Positions 10,882 through 34,106 of a DNA stretch of 64,000 bases are shown here, one piece after another. How positions within the stretch are numbered: position 1 is the first letter of the stretch; each line of letters starts with the position of its first letter. The position numbers were made by a program, and so were the translations under genes. The stretch is from Sphingomonas sp. 37zxx (GTDB lineage: Bacteria > Pseudomonadota > Alphaproteobacteria > Sphingomonadales > Sphingomonadaceae), in contig NZ_JROH01000004.1 in the NCBI RefSeq assembly GCF_000786205.1, forward strand, positions 124,001-188,000. Reading direction: 5' to 3'. The notes beneath the pieces were generated by a model. It worked only from the letters and a program-made list of their open reading frames with translations. It was not told the DNA's origin and ran no database searches.

Positions 10882-10890
10882 CCCCCTCCC
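10882..10890 (-). promoter_or_regulatory. Shine-Dalgarno of nuoL inside a REP element
   Basis: On the minus strand this reads GGGAGGGGG and ends 4 bases before the nuoL GTG. It is at the same time the outer arm of the terminal hairpin of the REPIN-like repeat in the nuoK-nuoL gap, so hairpin formation would mask the ribosome binding site. Confidence 0.55.
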
Positions 10891-10981
10891 GCTGGCGGGA
10901 GGGGTTAGGGGTGGGGCTATCCACGAAGGTTGAAGCCATCAAAGGGCCCACCCCCGACCCCTCCCGCGAGCGGGAGGGGGG
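10882..10981. repeat. REPIN-like element in the nuoK-nuoL gap
   Basis: Two GC-rich palindromes, at 10882-10904 and 10958-10979, are arranged head to head: each reads inward as CCCCTCCCGC..GCGGGAGGGG followed by TYRGGGGTGGG. Two inverted REP sequences about 55 bases apart are the architecture of a REPIN, normally spread by a RAYT transposase; none is present in this window. It is the only sizeable spacer besides the nuoG-H and nuoI-J gaps in an otherwise overlapping operon. Confidence 0.8.
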
Positions 10982-32507: not shown

Positions 32508-32717
32508 ATGGCTTCAGAACCCCCACATCCCGCGATCGAGCGGATCGAACGTGCTGTCGCGCGCATCGAAAAGGCCGCCGCCGCGCGCGCATTTGACGCC
32601 GATTCGATGGCACGCCGCCACGCCGCGCTGCGCGAGCGGATGGAAGAGGCGGTGGCCGCGCTCGATGAACTGATCGCGCGCGAAGGCGGGGACGCGGACC
32701 AGGGGAACAAGCGCTGA
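32508..32717 (+). CDS. zauP: ZauP-like coiled-coil partner of ZapA
   Basis: A 69-residue charged helical protein (PAIERIERAVARIEKAAAAR, then RRHAALRERMEEAVAALDELI) that looks like two short coiled-coil segments. In Caulobacter a small coiled-coil protein encoded directly upstream of zapA, ZauP, binds ZapA and tightens the cytokinetic Z ring; position, size and composition here match. Its stop overlaps the zapA start as TGATG. Sequence identity to ZauP was not tested. Confidence 0.7.
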   Translation: MASEPPHPAIERIERAVARIEKAAAARAFDADSMARRHAALRERMEEAVAALDELIAREGGDADQGNKR

Positions 32718-33019
32718 TGGCCGAAGTCACGCTCACCATCGCCGGTCGCGACCACAAGGTCGCCTGCCGCGACGGCGAAGAAGGGCAGTTGCGCGCACTC
32801 GCCGGCAAGCTGGAGGCGCACGGTGCCGCCGCATTGCGCGCCTCGGGCGGGCTTAGCGGCGAGCGCACGATGTTGTTCATCGCGCTGATGCTGGCCGACC
32901 AGCTCGTCGAACAGGAAGTCGCTCCCCCCAGCGGCATTCCGCCGATGCTGCTCGATCGAATCGCCGATCGCCTCGAAGCCGTCGCATCGGCTCTTGAGGA
33001 TGACGGCGCGGCGCACTAG
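32717..33019 (+). CDS. zapA: Cell division protein ZapA
   Basis: Binds and crosslinks FtsZ filaments at the division site. The N-terminal strand pair MAEVTLTIAGRDHKVACRDGEE is the ZapA head domain, and the C-terminal part is a coiled-coil helix containing ERTMLFIALMLADQL. The length of 100 residues is typical. It is followed by 6S RNA and the 5-formyltetrahydrofolate cyclo-ligase gene, a well-known conserved order. Confidence 0.9.
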   Translation: MAEVTLTIAGRDHKVACRDGEEGQLRALAGKLEAHGAAALRASGGLSGERTMLFIALMLADQLVEQEVAPPSGIPPMLLDRIADRLEAVASALEDDGAAH

Positions 33020-33020
33020 A

Positions 33021-33176
33021 TTGGCGTTGGCGGGTACTGCCCGGTGCGAGCTTTAGCGAAAATCCCTGAGGCGATAATCATCCTATGGGGGCTGTCCCTG
33101 CCCGGATCCTGGTCCGACGCACATGGTTCCCACCTGACGTACTTGGCGTCAGAGGATCTTCCAGCCAACGGCCACG
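33021..33176 (+). ncRNA. ssrS: 6S RNA
   Basis: Binds sigma-70 RNA polymerase and represses housekeeping promoters in stationary phase. The assignment rests on position (zapA-6S-ygfA is conserved in proteobacteria) and on structure: GGCGTTGGCGGG at 33023-33034 pairs with CCAGCCAACGGCC at 33161-33173 to close a long stem, with CTGCCCGG-type sequence and a large central region between. A GC palindrome GGCGGGCCCGCC follows at about 33177-33188. Exact ends are approximate. Confidence 0.75.
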
Positions 33177-33197
33177 GCGGGCCCGCCACCTGCCCCG

Positions 33198-33899
33198 ATG
33201 ATTGATCCCAAATCAGCGATGCGTGCGCGCATCCGCGCCGCGCGCGATGCGTTCATCGGCGCGATGGAGCTTGATGGGTCCCCCTCCCGCTTGCGGGAGG
33301 GGCAACATCAGTCCCCCTCCCGCAGGCGGGAGGGGCTAGGGGAGGGCCTGTCGGCGAGCACCGACGCTGTCGGCATACAACACCCCCTCCCCCGACCCCT
33401 CCCGCAGGCGGGAGGGGAGACGATAGCACCACCGCCTGCCTATCTCGCTCGCCTGACCCCCGGCACGATCGTCGCCAGCTACATCCCCCTGGGCAGCGAA
33501 GCCGACCCTACCGCGCTGGTCGCCGCAGCGCTCACAAATGGCTGCACGCTCGCCCTGCCCCATGTCATCAGCCGTCAAGCGCCCATGCGCTTCCTCGAAT
33601 GGAACCCCGCGCGGCCCCTCGAACGCGGCATATACGGCCTCCAGCAGCCGCCAGCCGATGCGCGCGAACTCGCGCCCGACATCGTCCTGGTCCCGCTGGT
33701 AGCATTCGACAGCGCACTACACCGCCTTGGCCAGGGCGCAGGCTATTATGATCGCGCGCTGGCCAGCCTGCCCGCTGCATGGCGGCTGGGCGTCGCCTGG
33801 TCGGTGCAGCAGGTATCGCAGGTCCCGGTTGACCCCTGGGACGTGCCGCTGCACGGCGTCGTCACCGAACGATCGGTGAAATTTGCAGGAGATAGCTGA
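33198..33899 (+). CDS. ygfA: 5-formyltetrahydrofolate cyclo-ligase with a repeat-derived insert
   Basis: Converts 5-formyl-THF to 5,10-methenyl-THF with ATP. The C-terminal two thirds are a clean family match: VASYIPLGSEADP, ALPHVISRQAPMRF, PDIVLVPLVAFD and the signature RLGQGAGYYDRAL. Residues about 27-74 are foreign to the family and are encoded by a triple REP/REPIN-like repeat at 33278-33416 in an open frame. Without it the protein would be about 187 residues, the normal length, but some N-terminal helix may have been replaced rather than merely interrupted. Whether the enzyme still works is unknown; the frame and active-site region are intact. Confidence 0.88.
   Translation: MIDPKSAMRARIRAARDAFIGAMELDGSPSRLREGQHQSPSRRREGLGEGLSASTDAVGIQHPLPRPLPQAGGETIAPPPAYLARLTPGTIVASYIPLGSEADPTALVAAALTNGCTLALPHVISRQAPMRFLEWNPARPLERGIYGLQQPPADARELAPDIVLVPLVAFDSALHRLGQGAGYYDRALASLPAAWRLGVAWSVQQVSQVPVDPWDVPLHGVVTERSVKFAGDS
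33278..33416. repeat. Triple REP (single REP plus REPIN) inside ygfA
   Basis: Three palindromes of the CCCCTCCCGC..GCGGGAGGGG type lie at 33278-33300, 33312-33334 and 33395-33416. The second and third are in inverted orientation with the same inward-facing GCTAGGGGAGGG-type sequence as in the other REPINs. The whole array stays open in the ygfA frame. Confidence 0.85.
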
Positions 33900-34106
33900 A
33901 TGGACCCCAGTTGGCGCAAGCCCGCCGGCATGTTTGCCATCCTGGCACTGATCCTGGTGTGGGTCGTGCTGATCGCCAGCTTTGCCGGCCTGATCGGCCA
34001 ATTGCACTGGACGTTGCAGGCGGTGGTCTATCTCGTCACCGGCATCATCTGGATCATGCCGCTCAAGCCGCTGCTGCGCTGGATGGAAGTCGGCACCTGG
34101 CGCTGA
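33900..34106 (+). CDS. DUF2842 family small membrane protein
   Basis: A 68-residue protein with two membrane segments (about residues 10-31 and 39-55) and the tail IWIMPLKPLLRWMEVGTWR, which matches DUF2842. Function unknown. It begins directly after the ygfA stop, so it is probably cotranscribed with ygfA. Confidence 0.85.
   Translation: MDPSWRKPAGMFAILALILVWVVLIASFAGLIGQLHWTLQAVVYLVTGIIWIMPLKPLLRWMEVGTWR

Follow-up and report, generated by a model that had tools for sequence, protein, structure and literature searches.

Sphingomonas sp. 37zxx (genome G000 in what follows; 3,694,812 bases, or 3.69 Mb) carries, within the reading frame of ygfA, the gene for 5-formyltetrahydrofolate cyclo-ligase, a palindromic element whose REP units occur in many copies in its genome, and elements of this kind also lie in frame in other conserved genes of the strain and its relatives. 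Judging from comparisons of sequences, we consider it very probable that a REPIN, i.e., a recurring unit of two inverted REPs a short distance apart, has been fixed in frame in a permissive loop of YgfA and is translated as a tolerated peptide, and that ygfA exemplifies a process general to these bacteria. The features concerned are listed in Table 1, where coordinates without a locus handle refer to the stretch of DNA analysed here (the window), 64,000 nucleotides of contig NZ_JROH01000004.1.

Table 1. Features of the ygfA region and the glyS loci compared
Feature	Coordinates or loci	Strand	Basis or remark
zapA, neighbour upstream of ygfA	32717..33019	+	PF05164
Probable 6S RNA (ssrS), directly upstream of ygfA	33031..33187	+	Rfam RF00013, 40 bits (below the gathering score of 46.4), E 1.6e-6
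ygfA, 5-formyltetrahydrofolate cyclo-ligase, insert included	33198..33899	+	233 aa, ATG start
Codons 27-73 of ygfA, 47 residues missing in insert-free relatives	33276..33416	+	alignment to insert-free Sphingomonas YgfA
Single REP head (palindrome), within a 42-nt stretch lacking in G010 and G198	33281..33302		palindrome analysis, sequence comparison
REPIN, two inverted REPs with tails and spacer	33314..33417		layout equal to that of other REP pairs in the genome
REPIN left REP head	33314..33335		palindrome analysis
REPIN tails and spacer, beginning CTAGGGGAGGG and finishing CCCTCCCCCGA	33336..33395		sequence
REPIN right REP head	33396..33417		palindrome analysis
DUF2842 protein, neighbour downstream of ygfA	33900..34106	+	PF11003
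glyS of G000	L169:1-2304		two REPINs
glyS loci of relatives	L258-L287; L318-L387

The product of ygfA belongs to the 5-formyltetrahydrofolate cyclo-ligases by the curated cut-offs of both Pfam PF01812 (97.6 bits against 27) and TIGR02727 (129.5 bits against 84.9), and its core, including the motif GQGAGYYDRA, is undamaged. The original prediction, made from the letters of the window, had described a REPIN-like array of one single and two inverted palindromes translated as a segment foreign to the family, in a gene with neither stop nor frameshift at the insert and with intact downstream active-site sequences, and all of this is borne out by the open reading frame and by alignment with insert-free sphingomonads, which places the extra peptide (GSPSR...QAGG, 47 residues, rich in Pro, Ser, Arg and Gly) at residues 27-73, in the loop after helix 1. 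The insert thus has the properties of a coding palindromic element: it lies in a conserved gene, in frame and stop-free, and is absent from orthologues.

Each of the three REP heads is a perfect 22-nt palindrome with 10-bp arms and a 2-nt centre (CCCCTCCCGC-NN-GCGGGAGGGG), and together they occupy codons 28-35, 39-46 and 67-74. The REPIN proper, of about 104 nt, has 38-nt arms (33314-33351 and 33380-33417) that are 82% complementary. That these palindromes are REPs, short palindromes present far beyond chance, is evident from the 93 copies of the 22-mer CCCCTCCCGCNNGCGGGAGGGG in the G000 genome, as against none of its reversed control. Inverted pairing is likewise common, with 26 plus/minus pairs (52 of 84 orientation-listed sites in G000) whose starts lie 59-88 nt apart, and we extracted 32 REPINs from G000, the layout in ygfA being that of such a pair, 30 from the related genome G198 and 14 from a third, G010. 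These surveys used exact patterns, so that decayed copies are missed, among them the ygfA copy of G198, whose REPs have mismatches; the G010 survey covered sites other than that at position 3310789. All 13 REPIN spacers inspected start with GCTAGG, GTCGGG, GTTAGG or GCTGGG. Elsewhere in the window, a further inverted REP pair lies at 10884-10978, where no spanning open reading frame has coding signal on both sides (L181). The REPs of the GTAG and CGTC superfamilies bear an unpaired GTAG or CGTC tag at one end, and CGTC stems are 8-9 bp long with loops of 4-5, according to PMC3733652; the ygfA REP, with its 10-bp GC arms, 2-nt centre and neither tag, falls outside both.

As RNA, the ygfA insert folds very strongly (-110.3 kcal/mol, z -8.2), which could hinder translation. 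Rfam returned microRNA-like matches in the insert, which we rejected as low-score chance matches to a GC hairpin. An AlphaFold model of the protein places helix 1 at residues 4-25 and gives pLDDT below 50 at residues 26-72, as well as at 170-180 and 202-233; the model is poor (mean pLDDT 62, 16 sequences), so the disorder it suggests for the peptide is weak evidence, and its best fold matches are the cyclo-ligases 1sou and 2jcb.

We aligned an insert-free Sphingomonas YgfA to 137 ygfA loci drawn from two overlapping sources, of which 133 aligned through helix 1. The loop has 47 extra residues in G000, 32 in G010 and 34 in G198, and no other Sphingomonas ygfA among the 133 has 15 or more. Six further loci with at least 15 (L101, L106, L107, L108, L110 and L111) belong to other taxa, have low scores and look like misalignments. 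A genus-wide search gave a ygfA match at E 1e-30 in 287 of 295 genomes, and only those of G000, G010 and G198, among the matches listed, ran from residue 1; a two-contig, 100%-complete genus genome (G008) is without a ygfA match at the thresholds used. G010 and G198 are single-contig assemblies, and the three genomes measure 3.4-3.7 Mb.

Among these three genomes, gaps inside the insert measure 42, 6 and 3 nt, all multiples of three. For insert and remainder of ygfA, respectively, pN/pS values are 0.155/0.311 and 0.126/0.411 between G000 and G010, 0.22/0.228 and 0.123/0.439 between G000 and G198, and 0.091/0.237 and 0.043/0.133 between G010 and G198. In all three pairs pN is higher in the insert than in the remainder; pS is lower in the insert in both G000 pairs and higher in it between G010 and G198. 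Taken with the multiple-of-three gaps, these values indicate drift of the peptide with retention of the insert's frame, and by its sequence the insert is a relaxed peptide within a constrained gene. Perfect palindrome arms are found in G000 and G010, mismatched ones in G198. REPIN spacers in ygfA are identical at 0.71 (G000-G010), 0.79 (G000-G198) and 0.77 (G010-G198) of positions, values that unrelated REPINs also reach (background mean 0.68, 95th percentile 0.77, single pairs up to 0.80), so separate insertions at one spot are possible; the insertion was probably a single one, in an ancestor shared by the three related species, which spacer similarity alone does not prove. The genes differ in which genomes they make closest: in rnr G000 is nearest to G010 (pS 0.12), and in ygfA G010 is nearest to G198 (pS 0.13), a conflict that may reflect recombination between species.

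These comparisons suggest the following history. A REPIN of about 104 nt, arriving by REP mobility, would have entered the YgfA loop between helix 1 and the core, probably in the ancestor of the three species, and the lineage of G000 would have come to possess the further 42-nt stretch with its single REP as well. YgfA would be made with a Pro/Ser/Arg/Gly-rich peptide of 32-47 residues looping out, retained in an enzyme that presumably works with it, and the insert would owe its survival to a net length divisible by three and to the lack of stops in the frame in which it is read. More generally, REP-type elements would enter many places, those in coding sequence surviving mostly in frame and in loops, and the extra peptides, under weak constraint, would decay, drift or be replaced by other repeats at the same site.

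The in-frame position of the ygfA insert stands, as predicted; its standing as a lone oddity does not. We scanned the stretches around 95 REP sites of G000 (64 clusters, ygfA included) for open reading frames with coding signal on both sides of the REP and then compared these with Pfam and NCBIfam. Eleven of the 64 clusters lie in frame within ten recognisable genes, mostly housekeeping: ygfA, uvrA, dnaE, glyS (with two REPINs), putA, rnr, ileS, leuS, hrpB and pccA, the last for the alpha chain of propionyl-CoA carboxylase. Four of the inserts are in three aminoacyl-tRNA synthetases. Five further G000 candidates (L143+, L155, L162-, L176 and L194+) had no Pfam family match and were dropped. 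In-frame REPINs were found in glyS, putA, rnr and leuS of G198 (50 clusters examined), and REPs in rnr and ygfA of G010 (26 clusters, ygfA included); eight candidates from these two genomes (L204, L210, L211, L213, L227, L229, L234 and L247) were dropped for want of an NCBIfam match at 1e-10, the family scan having covered candidates other than L207, L209, L238 and the second frames of L225 and L232. Alignments to PDB structures set the REP peptide between aligned blocks in glyS (290/324 and 410/461), ileS (499/553), uvrA (250/305), rnr (433/491) and dnaE (325/366).

The leuS insert is 97% identical in nucleotides between G000 and G198 (spacer 98%), as against 91-93% in its flanks. In glyS of G000 both REPINs have the same reading frame; they are 92% similar to each other and 87% similar to the REPIN of rnr. 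The rnr insert is only 60% identical between G000 and G198, between flanks of 93-95% identity, and between G000 and G010 it is 94% identical apart from an additional in-frame stretch in G010. Judging by these cases, the elements seem to pass from one coding site to another and to replace each other at a given site.

The rnr loop was also inspected at 29 loci of the relatives chosen for glyS, of which 15 have long loops, 11 short ones and 3 lack an anchor. Of the 15 long loops 14 have a length divisible by three, and in 10 an inverted repeat surpasses those of shuffled sequences. Two of the "short" loops, those of G206 and G163, are frame-breaking REP remnants, so that the in-frame rule has exceptions in rnr. 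In these two loci (L306 and L307, of similar sequence) RNase R is split by the frameshift at the remnant, in the usual insertion loop, and the two halves keep open frames, of 444-475 and 358 aa, which would be compatible with decay, with frameshifting or with an enzyme made in two pieces. In the rnr loop of G211 (L303), a second palindrome is apparently nested within a repeat of another type with the frame open, and that of G152 (L311) holds a GGGGAGGGGGACC-type insert in which nine consecutive G accompany a frame shift, so that the gene may be truly disrupted or the homopolymer misread.

The glyS loop after LVEEGIV holds inserts of several repeat types across the Sphingomonadaceae. Its length was measured between the anchors D-K-V-x-R and L-x-K-A-D-L in three sets of loci. 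Of 28 relatives chosen, 27 gave a match; in these and G000, 21 loops are long, 5 short and 2 without an anchor. An insert-free glyS query matched 148 of 149 genomes of the family (91 genera), and at least 46 of the matches are broken at query positions 419-447; 40 of the 45 further loci with a broken match were taken and all 40 have long loops (150-231 nt, every one a multiple of three), a sample that is not random since the loci were chosen for that break. The best 30 loci comprise 26 short loops, one long loop and 3 without an anchor. Over the three sets 61 of 62 long loops are multiples of three, the exception, in G211, containing masked bases, and in-frame stops are absent from all 62. Compared with 40 shuffles, 47 of the 62 hold an inverted repeat that exceeds the best shuffled one (19/21, 27/40 and 1/1 by set), and the other 15 do not.

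The occupants of this loop include CGTC-type REPs, CTGTCGAAG-type, AGCGAAGTCGAG-type and GGGGAGGGGGACC-type inserts and several GC-stem types, with two inserts that fit none. Types were assigned by hand-typed motifs, of which the expressions for groups D and E overlap; A, B, D and E may represent a single style in several variants, and types C, CGTC, CTGTCGAAG and AGCGAAGTCGAG look clearly different. Single-linkage clustering was abandoned in favour of these motif labels, as it chained 57 of 60 inserts into one cluster. Genomic copies were counted for CTCCCCTTCAGGGGAG among the glyS insert types, and for the window's own REP type in G000, G198 and G010. Each of the eight genomes with CTCCCCTTCAGGGGAG in glyS has 5-77 copies of it on both strands; there are 10 copies in G159, whose glyS loop is short, and none in G000, G249 or G045, and the reversed control is absent from all 12 genomes searched. 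On a glyS tree the loop states require 45 changes, against a mean of 53.4 and a minimum of 47 in 200 shuffles, a weak sign of some phylogenetic order from a tree built in part from short fragments and from loci among which filled loops are over-represented.

We suggest, tentatively and with rather more doubt than confidence, that a few protein loops, above all that of glyS after LVEEGIV, may be standing landing sites at which different palindromic families arrive, persist in frame and are replaced within short divergence. Host proteins would then evolve by a cassette-like exchange of selfish DNA, and the position, as an mRNA hairpin or a flexible interdomain peptide, may be favoured by insertion targeting or by selection. 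We found no report of a re-colonised glyS loop in the literature on Sphingomonas REPINs, on palindromic inserts in glycyl-tRNA synthetase and on intragenic REPs at common sites, a search that covered main texts and few subscription papers.

The insert in ygfA might instead be useful and kept by selection, its mRNA hairpin pausing ribosomes or tuning expression or its flexible peptide adding a contact. The great stability of the hairpin would suit such a role, as would the occupation of one glyS loop in many lineages and the closer identity of the leuS inserts than of their flanks; we nevertheless think it unlikely, as ygfA and rnr show peptide sequences that drift or are swapped, the hairpin arms in the G198 ygfA are mismatched, and the glyS loop is short in many of the family's genomes (26 of the 27 measured among the best 30 loci). 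Removal or skipping of the peptide, by protein processing or translational bypassing, seems to us scarcely credible. Inteins are far larger than 47 residues, which counts against removal of the YgfA peptide. Skipping would require neither a length in multiples of three nor the absence of stops, yet both prevail in the long glyS loops; untranslated palindromic elements that are bypassed do exist in yeast mitochondria (PMC6649704).

That ygfA of G000 is decaying, unexpressed or started after the insert is very unlikely. The insert does lie close to the N-terminus, a region in which numerous REPs have been wrongly annotated as coding (PMC3733652), and aligning G000 with G010 requires a 1-nt gap close to the 3' end of ygfA, away from the insert, where the last residues differ, which indicates that not every indel in ygfA keeps the frame. 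Against decay, the frame is held through the insert in three species, two of them with single-contig assemblies, and the remainder of the gene has pN well below pS (0.126 against 0.411 for G000-G010); on the frame within the insert and on pN/pS we rejected a pseudogene. Use of a start codon downstream of the repeat, which the original prediction had named as evidence against itself, fails as well: in-frame ATG, GTG or TTG codons occur at codons 1, 8, 23 and 32, the last inside the insert, and then at 130, 203, 216 and 227, so that no start follows the insert ahead of the first core strand, and helix 1, which comes before the insert, can be aligned with that of relatives. Whether the peptide is tolerated, cut out or functional had been left as a question by that prediction; the data favour toleration over function, which is less probable, and give no support here to excision.

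A REPIN tolerated in frame has close counterparts in known systems. Selfish palindromes inserted in frame in functional, tolerant proteins of Rickettsia have reportedly been described by Ogata (2000, 2002) and by Claverie and Ogata (2003), and Di Nocera and colleagues are said to have described the GTAG and CGTC intragenic REPs. Rickettsia palindromic elements (RPEs), the older precedent, belong to reduced intracellular genomes; the work on them is cited in PMC6649704. The ygfA insert would share with RPEs the keeping of selfish palindromes in frame by tolerant proteins, and differs in lineage and in the size of the three genomes, the likeness drawn here being one of mode of action. As a likeness in concept, which is how it was first proposed, this comparison is supported, and the class is already published in the form of intragenic REPs (PMC3733652). 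That paper locates REPs of the GTAG and CGTC kinds within genes, many of which serve replication and repair (uvrA, and also dnaE of R. conorii), and within tRNA synthetases of X. oryzae, E. litoralis and S. alaskensis, reports different REPs at about one site in recB of two Xanthomonas species, and argues that such REPs are neutral in loops or alter repair; individual genes of the present set may already be listed in its Additional file 3. Palindromes and dimers in frame inside conserved genes are common to those REPs and to ours, which differ in that here one loop is filled in many genera. Hairpins are also tolerated inside translated mitochondrial genes of Nematomorpha, where, according to PMC6649704, both arms encode conserved residues; the ygfA element instead adds residues.

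The class being known from RPEs and intragenic REPs, ygfA itself is a further member of it, and the part without precedent found in the literature searched is the repeated re-colonisation of a single loop. It is the return of different repeats to shared loops of essential proteins that gives the case wider interest. The empty, filled and swapped states in close relatives form a natural insertion series, which makes it testable whether the peptides are merely tolerated, whether the loops attract insertions and how the elements turn over without a visible transposase. REPINs are mobilised by RAYT transposases. The elements studied here share with those systems the two inverted REPs, the short spacer and the many copies, and differ in that a profile search found no RAYT-type transposase (PF01797) in G000 or G198, so that a REPIN/RAYT system with its cognate Y1 transposase was not found in G000; RAYTs are discussed in PMC3733652. 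Matches to PF01797 occur in 3 of the 12 genomes searched (G010, G207 and G033), and that of G010 (L388, G010:C1:2623036-2623391) consists of two adjoining pieces, perhaps a broken relative of RAYT.
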